From positions 1 to 64,000 of the forward strand of contig JAUQWO010000013.1 of the NCBI GenBank assembly GCA_030835135.1: a DNA stretch of 64,000 nt, in the 5' to 3' direction. Below the pieces are notes generated by a model that saw only the letters and a program-made list of their open reading frames with translations, was not told the origin of the DNA and searched no databases. The position numbers were made by a program, and so were the translations under genes. Of this stretch, positions 6,662 through 27,345 are shown piece after piece (the stretch's first letter is position 1; each line of letters opens with the position of its first letter). Origin of the DNA: Bacteroidota bacterium (GTDB lineage Bacteria; Bacteroidota; Ignavibacteria; UBA10030; UBA6906).

Positions 6662-7117
6662 ATGAACCTCCACGATCTGCTGACGCATCACGCGGACGAC
6701 ATCCTGCGGGATGCCGGCGATGCGATACAGCGCGCACATCTGCGCAGCTATGAAAAGGCCGGCAGCGAAAACACCCACCACCGGCTGAAGGCACTCTATA
6801 CGCTCACCGTGCGCGCGGCCGCAGAGAAGAACCTGGGTCCCATGATCGCTCACGCCGAGGGGATCGCCCGGGAACGATTCGAATCCGGGTTCGACCTCTG
6901 GGAAGTGCAGACCGCCTTCAATGTGCTCGAAGAAGCCATCTGGGTCCGCATCCTCAAAGAGCTTCCACCCGACGCCTACGCCGAGGCACTCGGACTCATC
7001 AGCACCGTTCTTGGCGTGGGGAAAGATACCCTTGCACGCCGGTATGTCTCGCTCGCCAGCCGATCCCGTGTGCCTACATTGAATCTGCAGTCCCTCTTCA
7101 CCGGAACCGAAGGTTGA
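6662..7117 (+). CDS. RsbRD_N-like helical protein
   Basis: 151 residues, predicted all-helical, no signal peptide. The layout (LHDLLTHHADDILRDAGDAI, a central segment ending RERFESGFDLWEVQTAFNVLEEAIW, then an RRYVSLA end) resembles the RsbRD N-terminal domain of stressosome RsbR-type proteins, without the C-terminal STAS domain. This is a similarity judged by eye, not a firm assignment. No STAS, RsbS or RsbT gene is nearby. It precedes an OmpA-family gene by 35 bp and may share its transcript. Confidence 0.6.
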   Translation: MNLHDLLTHHADDILRDAGDAIQRAHLRSYEKAGSENTHHRLKALYTLTVRAAAEKNLGPMIAHAEGIARERFESGFDLWEVQTAFNVLEEAIWVRILKELPPDAYAEALGLISTVLGVGKDTLARRYVSLASRSRVPTLNLQSLFTGTEG

Positions 7118-9223: not shown

Positions 9224-9670
9224 GTGTTCCTGAAACCACGGTGGTATCAAGTCCTCCCCGAACATATCCGCCCTCCGGAAGAAAAACTGGAGGAGCTCGA
9301 GACATTGCGCCTGACACTCAGCATGCGGGAGGACGGGTTCCTCGCGGCGATCGCTACGACACCATGGGCCATCGTCCGCTCGCAGGAAGCGATCCTCGAG
9401 ACCATGCGTCAGCAATTCCCCGAGGCTGAGGACCGGCGGATCTGGACGGCGGTACTCATCGCCCGCTTCGAGATGAAGCTCGGCTCACCAGCCCCGTGGG
9501 ACCCGCCCGAGGAGGAGATCCGCCGGCGCATGGAGACGATCACCGAGATCGTGAAACCCATGGGCTCGTGGCAGGAGGTCCTTGCCTATATCCTGGAAAT
9601 GGACAAGGAAGGCATCAATCCGGATCCCACGGGACCGCACATGCTCATCGAGAAGATCCTCGCTTCATGA
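9224..9670 (+). CDS. hypothetical protein, overlaps downstream glycosylase
   Basis: 148 residues from a GTG at 9224; an ATG upstream at about 9213 is in another frame. Not recognised. It is acidic and helical, starting FLKPRWYQVLPEHIRPPEEKL, with a conserved-looking SPAPWDPPEEEIRRRM segment. No signal peptide or membrane segment. Its 3' end overlaps the start of the AlkA/OGG-like gene by four bases (ATGA at 9667), so the two are almost certainly translated together, suggesting a related function. Confidence 0.7.
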   Translation: MFLKPRWYQVLPEHIRPPEEKLEELETLRLTLSMREDGFLAAIATTPWAIVRSQEAILETMRQQFPEAEDRRIWTAVLIARFEMKLGSPAPWDPPEEEIRRRMETITEIVKPMGSWQEVLAYILEMDKEGINPDPTGPHMLIEKILAS

Positions 9671-10584
9671 GCAGCACCTTCCTCCTCCGCACACCACCCG
9701 ATTTCTCATTCTGGCGTACGGCCTACAGTCACGGCTGGTACGACCTCCTGCCCTTCCGCGCCGACCGTGAACACCAGACCCTCTCGAGGGTCCTCCGGTT
9801 GCACGATGGAACGCTCGCCGATTGCACCATGCGGACGGCACCCGGCGGTGTGCGGATCCACGCCGCGGCAACGATACCTCTGTCCGCAACCCACCGGAAG
9901 GAGATCCGCGCGGCCCTGGGCACATGCCTGCGGGTGGACGACGACCTCTCCGCCTTCTACCGCGCCATGCGCCGTCTTCCGGAGTATCGCTGGATCGCAC
10001 GGCACCGCGCCGGACGGCTTCTGCGCGCGCCGACGATGTTCGAAGACGCCGTGAAGATGATCTGCACCACGAACTGCACGTGGGCACTCACCGTGCAGAT
10101 GGTGCGTGGCATCGTGCGAACGTTCGGCCCCACCGACGGCACGCTGAATGCCTTCCCCGATCCCGCTTCCATCGCCGCTGCCACCGAAGCGACGCTGCGC
10201 AACAAATGTTCGACCGGCTACCGTTCTCCTGCCGTGCTCGAACTTGCAGACGCGGTCGCCTCCGGACGCCTGCCGATCGAATCGTGGCGCACGACTACCT
10301 GCAGTACGGAGGAACTCTTCGCAACGATGTGTACGGTCCGGGGCATCGGACCGTATGCAGCAGGCAACCTTCTCCGCCTGGCCGGACGCTATGAACACCT
10401 CGGCCTGGATTCCTGGGTCCGCAAGCAGTGGCGGATGTTGCATGCCCGTGGACGGGCCGTCAGCGATGCGCGGATCGAACGCTACTATGAACGGTATGGG
10501 GCGTGGCGGGGGTTGATGTTCTGGCTGGAGATGACGCGCGACTGGCACGATGAAAAGTTCCGAAAAGCGAAAGGCGGGCCGTAA
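9667..10584 (+). CDS. HhH-GPD DNA glycosylase (AlkA/OGG type)
   Basis: 305 residues starting at the ATG that overlaps the previous stop. The N-terminal half is an AlkA/OGG-like beta lobe. The C-terminal half is the HhH-GPD domain: TNCTWALTVQMVRGIVRTFG, then the hairpin CTVRGIGPYAAGNLL and LGLDSWVRK with the catalytic Asp. The lysine of bifunctional OGG enzymes is absent at GIGPYAA, which argues for a monofunctional, AlkA-like glycosylase that excises alkylated bases. Its stop codon lies inside a terminator hairpin shared with the convergent pfkA. Confidence 0.85.
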   Translation: MSSTFLLRTPPDFSFWRTAYSHGWYDLLPFRADREHQTLSRVLRLHDGTLADCTMRTAPGGVRIHAAATIPLSATHRKEIRAALGTCLRVDDDLSAFYRAMRRLPEYRWIARHRAGRLLRAPTMFEDAVKMICTTNCTWALTVQMVRGIVRTFGPTDGTLNAFPDPASIAAATEATLRNKCSTGYRSPAVLELADAVASGRLPIESWRTTTCSTEELFATMCTVRGIGPYAAGNLLRLAGRYEHLGLDSWVRKQWRMLHARGRAVSDARIERYYERYGAWRGLMFWLEMTRDWHDEKFRKAKGGP

Positions 10585-23665: not shown

Positions 23666-24958
23666 CTAACGTCTTCCTCTCCCCTCACTCCTCCCACCCC
23701 CACTCCCCGAAGAACGCTCACCACGATTGCTGCTCCCTCCGTCCCGCATAACCGGCCGATCGGCACTCGGCCGCTCGCTCCGGTTGGCGTCCGGGGCACG
23801 GGAGACCCGACCTTCATTCCGGGGACGCTCACTGCGGTCCGCATCCTGGTTCCGCCATTCCCTGCGGTCGGGACTCGAACCGTTCCTGCGATCGACATCG
23901 GCGTTCCGGTCCACACGCCGATCGGGCTGCGTGCGATCTACGGACCTGCGATCGACATCATTCCGCGTATCATCGCGCCGTTCACGCGGCGCCACTTCAA
24001 ACCACCGGCTATTCCGATCGGCCGGACGGCCATCCGGATTCACTGTGCGCGGTTCCGTGCTCCTCGGCTGCATCCGGTCGATGGACCGCCCATCAGCACG
24101 CGCCTCTTCACGGCGCCGCACATCCAGCCGGCGCGTATCCAGCGATGGCATCCGCTCGTTCTCACGGACCGAGCCAGGACGTTCGACGCGTTCGTCACCA
24201 CGCCGGTCTTCAATGCGCGGACGGTAGACACCGATGCGATCATTCCCCTCGCCACGCATGCCCCGCACCCGATCCCGGTCTTCCACATCCACCAGCGTCG
24301 TGCGCGGAATGCGCACGTCCCCACGCCGCTCGATGTATTCCGGTTCCGGTCCGCGCGACAGTGCCCGCCCGTTACCCGGACGTACACTGCCGGCCGTCCG
24401 TGTCCGCCCGATGAACCTGGTGTTGTCTTCCGAACGATACACGTAGCGATGGATATCATGATGCATCATGTGACGGCAATCCACGAACGACCAATAGTGG
24501 TACGGTGTGACCCAGTGCCGCGAATAGTGGATGCCATAGTAGCCATTGTACACTGCATACGGACCGAGAGGAGCCCATCCGACATGGTCGCCTCCATACC
24601 GCCACTCCACCCAGGCCGGGGCCCAGTCATAACCGGGGATCCAGAGCCATCCATAGTAGTCGTCGAAGTACCAGCGGCCATAATGATACGTGGCCCAGCC
24701 CCAGGGCTCATCGGTGTCCCAGTACCATCCGTCGTCGGTCCATACCCACCGGCCGAATTGATATGGGCGCCAACCGGTTACCACGCGCATCGGGCGCCAC
24801 GCATACAGGCCCGCATCGACCGTGACCCATTCGCCATGCGGATCCAGGGACGAGTAGAACGCACCGAACGAGATCTCGAACCCGCCGAATGAGAATGCGC
24901 GGACACTCGCCAGACCACTCAGGGCCACCAGCGCCAGAACTATCAGTATACGTTTCAT
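23666..24958 (-). CDS. secreted DUF6600-type protein with Arg-rich tail
   Basis: 430 residues. A signal peptide (MKRILIVLALVALSGLASVRA) is followed by about 150 residues very rich in Trp, Tyr and Gly with repeated units such as WRPYQFGRWVWTDDGWYWDT and YHYGRWYFDDYYGWLWIPGY, typical of DUF6600. From about residue 200 to the end the chain is low-complexity and rich in Arg, Asp, Ser and Pro. It is probably an envelope protein with a disordered, highly charged tail. No enzyme motif is seen; the function is unknown. Confidence 0.85.
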   Translation of the reverse strand: MKRILIVLALVALSGLASVRAFSFGGFEISFGAFYSSLDPHGEWVTVDAGLYAWRPMRVVTGWRPYQFGRWVWTDDGWYWDTDEPWGWATYHYGRWYFDDYYGWLWIPGYDWAPAWVEWRYGGDHVGWAPLGPYAVYNGYYGIHYSRHWVTPYHYWSFVDCRHMMHHDIHRYVYRSEDNTRFIGRTRTAGSVRPGNGRALSRGPEPEYIERRGDVRIPRTTLVDVEDRDRVRGMRGEGNDRIGVYRPRIEDRRGDERVERPGSVRENERMPSLDTRRLDVRRREEARADGRSIDRMQPRSTEPRTVNPDGRPADRNSRWFEVAPRERRDDTRNDVDRRSVDRTQPDRRVDRNADVDRRNGSSPDRREWRNQDADRSERPRNEGRVSRAPDANRSERPSADRPVMRDGGSSNRGERSSGSGGGRSEGRGRR

Positions 24959-25112: not shown

Positions 25113-26030
25113 TTATTGGATGGACCCGCCCAGCAAGGCGGCCATGATCCCATTCTGAACGGTTAGACGGTTGCGCGCCTGCTCCAGAGCGATGGAATTC
25201 GAGCCATCCAGGACCTCGCCGGTGATCTCCTCGCCGCGGTTCGCGGGGAGGCGATGCATGACAACGCAATCGGGTTTCGCGTGTTTCAGCAACGCCCGGT
25301 TCACCTGGTACGGCTTGAAGAGGAGCGCACGCCGTCCTTCCTCCACGCGCGGTGTGGCCTGCGGCCAGACATCCGTATACACCACATCGGCATCGGCCAC
25401 GGCGGCAATGGGATCGGAGATCATGTCGACCCGGCTGATCCCCGCGGTCTGCGCCTCGTCCAGAAAACGCGGATGCGGCTCATACCCCGCGGGACACGAA
25501 CACACCAGGTGGAAAGGCAGACGTGCGGCACACTCGAGCCAGGAGTTGGCCATGGTGTTACCATCACCCACATACACGATCTTCGTCGTCGGGGTGAACC
25601 GGCGCCGCTCCATCAGCGTGTACACATCACCGAGCACCTGACAGGGATGCAGCAGGTCCGTGAGTGCGTTGATCACCGGCACCGTCGCGCTCTCCGCCAG
25701 CTGCACACACGTCTGATGGCGGACAGTGCGTGCGATGATGAGATCGGTGTACTGAGAGACGATCGAGCCGATGTCGTGCACGGACTCGCGCGCCGCCATC
25801 CGTATGGTCGTGTCATCGAGGAAGACCGGATGGCCTCCCAGCTGCGCGATGCCGACCTCGAAGGAAACCCGCGTGCGGAGCGACGCACACTCGAAGATCA
25901 TCGCCGCGGTCCGGTGGGCGAGCGGTTGACGCACACGGCCACTGTCGGAGGCAAGCTCACGACTGATCCGCAGAACGGTCTGGAGCTCTTCCGCCGTCCA
26001 CAATGCAAAGGAAACAAGATCACGCTTCAT
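25113..26030 (-). CDS. argF: ornithine-carbamoyltransferase-like enzyme
   Basis: 305 residues, the size of OTCase, which makes citrulline from ornithine and carbamoyl phosphate. The carbamoyl-phosphate site is recognisable: ECASLRTRVSFE (family STRTR), LLHPCQVLGD, and YVGDGNTMANSWLE. Two expected OTCase motifs differ. The HCLPA motif reads MHRLPANRGEE, losing the usual cysteine, and the ornithine-binding SMG loop after TDVW reads PQATPR. The acceptor could therefore be something other than ornithine. It stands alone, without other arginine genes nearby. The symbol reflects family, not proven substrate. Confidence 0.78.
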   Translation of the reverse strand: MKRDLVSFALWTAEELQTVLRISRELASDSGRVRQPLAHRTAAMIFECASLRTRVSFEVGIAQLGGHPVFLDDTTIRMAARESVHDIGSIVSQYTDLIIARTVRHQTCVQLAESATVPVINALTDLLHPCQVLGDVYTLMERRRFTPTTKIVYVGDGNTMANSWLECAARLPFHLVCSCPAGYEPHPRFLDEAQTAGISRVDMISDPIAAVADADVVYTDVWPQATPRVEEGRRALLFKPYQVNRALLKHAKPDCVVMHRLPANRGEEITGEVLDGSNSIALEQARNRLTVQNGIMAALLGGSIQ

Positions 26031-26118: not shown

Positions 26119-26472
26119 TCAGAGCCGTGACGAGAGCGATATCCCCGTGCCGCGGGTCATGATGTGACTGTACAACACCTCACACGAACCACATAGCCGC
26201 CGCGCAGGATCCACATCCAGAAGGTTCTGATCCACCGGACTCTTGCAGGCGAGACAGGTTCCGTAGCCACCTGCCTCGAGCCGGTTGAGAGCGCTGCGCA
26301 ACTCATCGATCCGGGCATCGCTCTTGAACGCCAGCAACGCATCGATCTCTCGATCCGACATCTGGTCCTGAACGAATTGCTCGGCCGTGGACTCCAGTCC
26401 GTAGGCGTCCTGCAAATGCGCATACAGACACTGCAGGATGCTCCGTCGCACCATTCGCTTGCTCTTCTTCAT
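26119..26472 (-). CDS. DksA/TraR-family zinc-finger protein
   Basis: 117 residues from the ATG at 26472 with GGGAG upstream; the longer open frame through the glutathione peroxidase region is a shadow. The N-terminal half is a helical coiled coil (FKSDARIDELRSALNRLEAGG) and the C-terminal half holds a C4 zinc finger: YGTCLACKS ... RRLCGSCEV. Members bind RNA polymerase through the secondary channel and modulate transcription, often with ppGpp. A promoter lies about 140 bp upstream. Confidence 0.85.
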   Translation of the reverse strand: MKKSKRMVRRSILQCLYAHLQDAYGLESTAEQFVQDQMSDREIDALLAFKSDARIDELRSALNRLEAGGYGTCLACKSPVDQNLLDVDPARRLCGSCEVLYSHIMTRGTGISLSSRL

Positions 26473-26760: not shown

Positions 26761-27345
26761 ATGAGGAGGGTCTTGACTATGAGCCTGATGGCATACATGA
26801 TGATGGTGGGTTCGCTGACGGGTACAGCGAAGGGATCGCGGACCGACGCCCCTGCGCCGGAGAGCGTCCATGAGTTCACGATGAAGAGCATCGACGGAGC
26901 CGATGTCCCGCTCGCCCGCTACAAGGGCAAGGTGCTGCTGATCGTGAACGTGGCATCGAAATGCGGCTACACTCCGCAGTACACCGGACTCGAGGAACTC
27001 TACCGGCGGTACAAGGACAAGGGACTGATGGTGCTCGGATTTCCGGCGAACAATTTCGGCTGGCAGGAACCCGGTACCGATGCGGACATCAAGACCTTCT
27101 GCTCGACGAACTACAATGTGACCTTCGCTATGTTCTCGAAGATCTCCGTCAAGGGCAGCGACCAGCATCCGCTCTACGCATACCTGACGTCCGAGGATGC
27201 GAATCCGGCGACAGCGGGTGGCGTGAAGTGGAACTTCACGAAGTACCTGGTCGGCAAGGACGGTCACGTGATCGCGAAGTTCGGGTCCGGAACGGAACCG
27301 CTGTCCGAAGAACTGGTGAAGGCGGTTGAAACCGCGTTGAAGTAA
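26761..27345 (+). CDS. secreted glutathione-peroxidase-family protein
   Basis: 194 residues with an N-terminal signal-like hydrophobic segment, so probably periplasmic. The catalytic tetrad of the GPx family is visible: Cys in NVASKCGYTPQYTGLEEL, Gln in FPANNFGWQEPG, and Trp and Asn in VKWNFTKYLV. It reduces peroxides using thioredoxin or another thiol in most bacteria. AAAGGAG lies just before the ATG. It is monocistronic, ends before a strong hairpin, and is divergent from the DksA-like gene. Confidence 0.93.
   Translation: MRRVLTMSLMAYMMMVGSLTGTAKGSRTDAPAPESVHEFTMKSIDGADVPLARYKGKVLLIVNVASKCGYTPQYTGLEELYRRYKDKGLMVLGFPANNFGWQEPGTDADIKTFCSTNYNVTFAMFSKISVKGSDQHPLYAYLTSEDANPATAGGVKWNFTKYLVGKDGHVIAKFGSGTEPLSEELVKAVETALK

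Follow-up and report, generated by a model that had tools for sequence, protein, structure and literature searches.

The window, by which we mean the whole 64,000-nucleotide stretch of Bacteroidota DNA analysed here, encodes a protein derived from ornithine carbamoyltransferase (OTC, ArgF) that, on balance, appears to have lost ornithine recognition and most likely carbamoylates a different amine. Its sequence marks it as a carbamoyltransferase that works like those of the unknotted OTC branch, and its gene, by tree and by location, is a relocated descendant of argF restricted to the window's family (f1), a group of uncultured bacteria close to Ignavibacteria. More tentatively, we propose that argF, after relocating and acquiring a new function, gave rise to an undescribed carbamoyltransferase class, recognisable by HRLP and a free-form 240s loop, whose acceptor, probably one bearing a carboxylate, is used by no known carbamoyltransferase.

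The features on which this argument depends are collected in the table. A preliminary description of this DNA had reported that the carbamoyl-phosphate side of the protein is OTC-like, that HRLPA stands where OTC has HCLPA, and that PQATPR replaces the SMG loop. The translated reading frame bears out all of these statements. Its motifs are SLRTR (S50-R54), LLHPCQ, GDGNTMANSW, YTDVWPQATPRVEEGRR and MHRLPANRGEEIT, and the 240s loop reads D220-V-W-P-Q-A-T-P-R; the SxRT and HPxQ motifs of the carbamoyl-phosphate site are present, with residues invariant across both alignments used here (A1, 40 rows of HRLPA, argF and carbamate-kinase-clade proteins; A2, the 16 HRLPA proteins). We also found a third altered site, absent from that description: the lysine of FxKxSxRT has become Cys48.

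Table. Features of the HRLPA carbamoyltransferase gene and its neighbours, in window coordinates
Feature	Position	Strand	Basis
HRLPA carbamoyltransferase gene	25113..26030	(-)	305 aa + stop; Pfam OTCace_N and OTCace
S50-L51-R52-T53, carbamoyl-phosphate phosphate site (SxRT)	25872..25883	(-)	Invariant, 40 rows of A1 and 16 rows of A2
Cys48, where OTC has the lysine that contacts the ornithine carboxylate	25887..25889	(-)	Lys of FxKxSxRT in every argF and CK-clade OTC compared
R101, carbamoyl-phosphate-binding Arg	25728..25730	(-)	Invariant in A1 and A2
H128-P-C-Q131 (HPxQ), carbamoyl site	25638..25649	(-)	Invariant in A1 and A2
D220 to F238, 240s (SMG) loop, here without SMG	25317..25373	(-)	Loop entropy; pLDDT
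H259-R-L-P-A263 motif	25242..25256	(-)	Motif read-out, alignment
R288 of NRL, OTC Arg contacting carbamoyl phosphate (equivalence by alignment)	25167..25169	(-)	Invariant in A1 and A2
DksA/TraR-like gene for a small protein with four cysteines, directly upstream	26119..26472 (P0001 26119-26469)	(-)	DksA model, weak match (34.9 bits; cut-off 105)
DUF6600 gene, directly downstream	23666..24958	(-)	PF20245, 109 bits
Divergent glutathione-peroxidase-like gene, a flanking marker by which the locus was recognised	26761..27345	(+)	PF00255, 147 bits

The OTC equivalog model, NCBIfam TIGR00658, accepts the protein (293 against a cut-off of 280.85 bits), so automatic pipelines will call it an ornithine carbamoyltransferase. 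Its closest relatives of solved structure are OTCs, and its AlphaFold model (pLDDT 92.7 overall, 62 in block 221-230) finds its best fold match in the unknotted AtOTC 8qeu (TM 0.94). It shares with ArgF that fold, the carbamoyl-phosphate site, length and ancestry, and it is 45-51% identical to argF proteins from its own order and class. It differs from ArgF in reading HRLP for HCLP, in a loop that has lost SMG and become hypervariable, in not keeping the FxKxS lysine, and in being encoded outside the arg operon. HRLP is read in all 16 genomes with an intact gene; the lysine, missing from the window protein, is kept in 8 of the 16 members of the clade; and the DxxxSMG loop, a criterion from PMC4581275, occurs in none of the 17 family rows. 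Because the protein lacks the loop and lysine that this source gives for OTC, we have not filed it as one.

The altered motifs recur across f1. We surveyed 150 relatives and the best 80 loci of named genomes, phyla beyond Bacteroidota being covered solely through the latter; of the 112 loci fetched, a match could be read in 111 at the chosen E-value, and the one without a match, L003, is the aspartate enzyme. HRLPA without SMG was read in 17 of the 111 relatives, all from f1: 16 genomes plus L033 (Ignavibacteriae bacterium fen_1255), whose motifs are identical to those of L007 from G016. HCLPA with an SMG loop was read in 93 (L048 reads SMC and L030 reads SLD). The remaining row, L021 from G006, was mis-parsed, and L128, which has HCLPA and SMG, was used instead. 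Intact orthologs, 59-74% identical, occur in 16 of the 21 f1 genomes, a recurrence that excludes chance or sequencing error. When 395 genomes drawn evenly from the phylum were searched for the HRLPAxRGEE DNA pattern, three carried it, all in f1. Elsewhere in the family, the G009 locus is interrupted by a contig end, G011 (70% complete) gave no match, and the copy in G014 (92% complete; L129, about 9600-10300) is a pseudogene with frameshifts and an internal deletion that removes the stretch with the 240s loop and HRLPA. G008 yielded no HRLPA gene; its DUF6600 match is 44% identical and begins 317 bases from a contig end, so that the locus probably lies outside the assembly, and we rejected this genome as proof that the gene can be lost.

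We compared the 16 HRLPA proteins with 25 argF and 36 carbamate-kinase (CK)-clade OTCs of the order. At S50, R52, T53, R101, H128, Q131, D220, W222 and R288, neither A1 nor A2 shows any variation. C260 and H264, 100% conserved in the argF and CK-clade OTCs, are replaced by R260 in 16 of 16 HRLPA proteins and by N264 in 15 of 16. Lys48 and the loop residues S, M, G and E, 98-100% fixed in the argF and CK-clade OTCs, are variable in the HRLPA proteins, where position 48 is K in eight, R in five, and C, L or H in one each. Q110, S114 and H186 are new invariants of the 16. Entropy within the loop (223-237) is 2.07 bits, against 0.87 elsewhere in the HRLPA proteins, and the same loop in argF has 1.27 against 1.11; no conserved new acceptor-binding motif was found in the 240s loop of the 16. 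The dN/dS is about 0.02-0.11 (NG86, five close pairs; a sixth pair gave no dS) and resembles that of CK-clade pairs from the same genomes. Together with the invariant carbamoyl-phosphate site, this implies that the gene is not decaying. These comparisons indicate that purifying selection holds the protein while its acceptor loop varies freely. That the altered sites, by alignment, fall on three ornithine-recognition elements (the lysine, the SMG loop and the cysteine) supports a new acceptor.

The phylogeny points to an origin in the arginine operon. In a tree of 98 proteins (quick IQ-TREE, SH-aLRT only; built without four distant rows and without L021, for which L128 was substituted), the 16 HRLPA proteins form one clade (SH-aLRT 100) on a long stem (0.43). 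This clade lies within OTC and apart from the CK-linked OTC clade: it groups with the argF proteins encoded in the operons of f3 and G006 (98), and the whole group falls within the set of operon-encoded argF (99). The preliminary description had named placement inside the OTC clade, coupled with normal ornithine activity, as what would tell against its proposal, and on placement the tree goes that way. The arg operon of the source genome (G000) runs argC-argJ-argB-argR-argG-argH without argF, leaving a gap of 21 bases between argB, which ends at 7027, and argR, which starts at 7049 (L152); in G006 a normal argF lies between argB and argR. Among the matches listed, no OTC lies in the arg operon of any HRLPA genome in which the operon was located, and none of the 21 f1 genomes has both a canonical argF and the HRLPA gene. 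In a tree of ArgB, ArgG and ArgH (quick method, SH-aLRT only), G006 stands beside 11 f1 members, with G012, G017 and G019 outside on a long branch.

At its present site the gene lies just upstream of DUF6600 in every genome inspected (nine relatives' loci and the window), and a DksA-like gene was called before it in four of the nine and in the window; the window's DksA/TraR-like protein has no Pfam match. In G006, the one genome of this kind, the site holds glutathione peroxidase, the DksA-like gene and DUF6600 with no carbamoyltransferase between them. This empty site may be ancestral, or the HRLPA gene may have been lost there. All three neighbours are present in G006 without the carbamoyltransferase and indicate no pathway, and we rejected any deduction of the acceptor from them.

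If the HRLPA protein does not make citrulline, another enzyme should be available to do so. G000 (4.9 Mb, 88 contigs) has three carbamoyltransferase matches: the HRLPA protein, an aspartate enzyme, and a normal SMG/HCLPA OTC (L002) encoded directly 5' of carbamate kinase. This CK-clade OTC is present in 15 of the 16 genomes with an intact HRLPA gene, and at least three of argB, argC, argG and argH are over cut-off in 14 of the 16. The genome without a CK-clade OTC, G013 (95% complete), has an intact HRLPA protein and no match over cut-off for any of the four arginine genes; these genes are likewise not over cut-off in G014, where the HRLPA gene is pseudogenised. Only one arginine-pathway genome of f1 is without a CK-clade OTC, namely G006, which keeps its normal argF, and none of the 21 has the pathway while lacking both CK-clade OTC and canonical argF. 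As an ordinary OTC is always available in these arginine-pathway genomes, the HRLPA protein need not be one. In the wider order, 24 genomes have argB and argH both over cut-off; 13 have operon argF, and in the other 11 (G027, G029, G030, G032, G035, G039, G043, G045, G049, G052 and G058) CK-clade OTC is the sole type among the matches listed, G027 and G035 each having a second, weaker match outside these. No arcA was over cut-off in any of the 21 f1 genomes; the CK-linked OTC is therefore not tied to the classical arginine deiminase pathway, and we rejected arginine deiminase as its partner.

Two further gene sets were seen in the source genome. On contig C45, the normal OTC, carbamate kinase and a cobW-like nucleotide-binding protein lie in a row (L140, 11224-14584), an order repeated in G004 (L144). 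On contig C49, L223 (5558-11373) is a LysW-type lysine gene set with a 57-aa carrier protein ending EDWGE, followed by genes that we take, from features of their sequences, to be homocitrate-synthase-like, LysX-like and argD-like. The set includes argC-like and argB-like matches, and a similar argC/argB pair is present in G001.

The HRLPA protein can also be set against carbamoyltransferases of known specificity. In the motif tables of PMC4581275 and PMC4016543, the variable residue of HxLP is C in OTC, putrescine carbamoyltransferase (AguB/PTC), AOTC and SOTC; C, A or V in the YgeW type; P in aspartate carbamoyltransferase (ATC); D in the diamino acid enzymes; and S or T in ureidoglycine carbamoyltransferases and pseudo-ATCases. 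Arginine appears in neither table, and literature searches for HRLP in a carbamoyltransferase and for OTC of Ignavibacteria, which mostly covered sources other than subscription journals, found nothing. PTC is the closest parallel in several respects: it is OTC-like, its SMG loop is replaced with the loop Asp kept, the lysine before SxRT is replaced in both proteins, and the 240s-type loop sets the acceptor within an OTC-like fold (PMC3282769). However, the window protein has PQATPR rather than the (Y/W)(G/W)(V/L/I)x motif of the PTC 230 loop, ends at residue 305 without the 20-residue C-terminal helix, has HRLP where PTC keeps HCLP, and scores 242 against a cut-off of 500 bits with the PTC model TIGR04384. 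The L-2,3-diaminopropionate and L-2,4-diaminobutyrate carbamoyltransferases (DPTC/DBTC) also belong to the OTC branch and have the HxLP residue swapped along with the loop, but they read HDLP and (T/S)RWQ where the window protein reads HRLP and DVWP. Ureidoglycine carbamoyltransferases and pseudo-ATCases share a swapped HxLP residue (H[ST]LP or HPLA), but lie on the ATC branch with another loop. The protein shows neither the RxQ loop motif nor the HPLP of ATC (TIGR00670, 117 against 236.95 bits), and G000 has a separate ATC (407 bits, cut-off 263).

How far the altered residues affect ornithine use can be gauged from studied OTCs. The lysine two residues before SxRT meets the ornithine carboxylate (PMC3282769, PMC4581275), and in E. 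coli OTC the Cys thiolate is reported to form a salt bridge with the ornithine delta-amino group (PMC7004355). A cationic Arg260 would, by analogy, oppose that bridge; in human OTC the identical substitution, C303R, is among the known disease mutations (PMC6098936, PMC4235886). For the E. coli enzyme, one study put the cost of changing the Cys to Ala at about 3-fold and cites older work with a value of about 25-fold, and losing the Asp equivalent to Asp220 costs 450-580-fold (PMC7004355). Because the Cys-to-Ala change is mild under some conditions, loss of the cysteine is not decisive on its own.

The protein could still be an anabolic OTC, its argF having moved and its ornithine site having drifted, so that Asp220, backbone contacts and as yet unrecognised residues would bind ornithine. 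We consider this unlikely. Asp220 is kept and the OTC equivalog cut-off is passed, three or more of the four tested arginine genes are present in 14 of the 16 HRLPA genomes, and the G014 pseudogene occurs in a genome where those genes are not over cut-off, as expected of a role in arginine synthesis; all of this counts against a new acceptor, as do the lack of a conserved new binding motif in the loop and the fact that the neighbours indicate no acceptor or pathway. Nesting in argF and mutual exclusivity with canonical argF also favour continued OTC function. Against it stand a second OTC with full SMG and HCLPA motifs in almost every HRLPA genome, the 11 arginine-pathway genomes of the order in which, among the matches listed, that CK-clade OTC occurs alone, its separation from the classical deiminase pathway, the joint loss of SMG, Lys and Cys with a loop now hypervariable, and the intact protein of G013, which lacks the pathway. 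Rather improbable, in our judgement, is a non-catalytic paralog that binds carbamoyl phosphate in a regulatory or structural capacity, perhaps by joining the CK-linked OTC or the aspartate enzyme in mixed trimers, its acceptor pocket filled by Arg260. Invariant carbamoyl-phosphate residues beside a hypervariable acceptor loop, the poor ordering of that loop in the predicted model and the stable co-occurrence with a second OTC are all consistent with such a role, but strict retention of Asp220, W222 and HxLP with the following RGEE exceeds what binding alone needs, and G013 has no CK-clade OTC to act as pairing partner.

The preliminary description had also connected the protein with succinylornithine, and this part of its proposal is not supported. 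A carbamoyltransferase acting on N-succinyl- or N-acetylornithine, of the kind that Bacteroides or Xanthomonas has, is suggested by the organism's place in the FCB group, judged by its nearest named relatives, and by the possibility that Arg260 could hold a succinyl carboxylate. However, the operon includes argJ (502 bits, cut-off 351), which releases free ornithine and makes succinylornithine use unlikely; the AOTC model NF003384 fails (127 against 288); the protein has ordinary OTC length, an unknotted OTC as its nearest fold and a position nested in operon argF; and by length, fold matches and model score it shows none of the knotted fold, proline-rich loop or extended 120s loop of AOTC and SOTC. 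Given argJ and the failed knotted-family model, we rejected succinyl- and acetylornithine as acceptors, and regard an enzyme of this kind as very improbable. The broader suggestion of a new acceptor holds up better, since the changes are real, f1-wide, maintained by purifying selection and located on three ornithine-recognition elements, and genome content shows that the protein is not required as an OTC.

Under our preferred explanation, a changed acceptor, the intact CK-linked OTC would have taken over citrulline synthesis and so freed argF. Carbamoyl phosphate would still bind in the N-terminal domain, with the acceptor entering the cleft. The fixed Arg260, where OTC has its Cys thiolate, may bind a carboxylate near the amine that reacts. 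The invariant Asp220 would keep the part it plays in OTC and PTC, holding an amino group, and the site would be closed by the variable 240s loop without specific contact between loop and acceptor. The reaction would release phosphate and yield an N-carbamoyl (ureido) amino acid. As a first guess at the acceptor, we suggest a small amino or diamino acid.

Since curated models name this protein OTC, metabolic reconstructions of these bacteria probably contain a wrong or doubtful step. If its acceptor is indeed new, the protein would extend the short list of carbamoyltransferase specificities by one. The family also offers a natural experiment, in which G006, with an operon argF and an empty site, can be set against relatives that have the relocated, altered gene and a second OTC that apparently covers the step.
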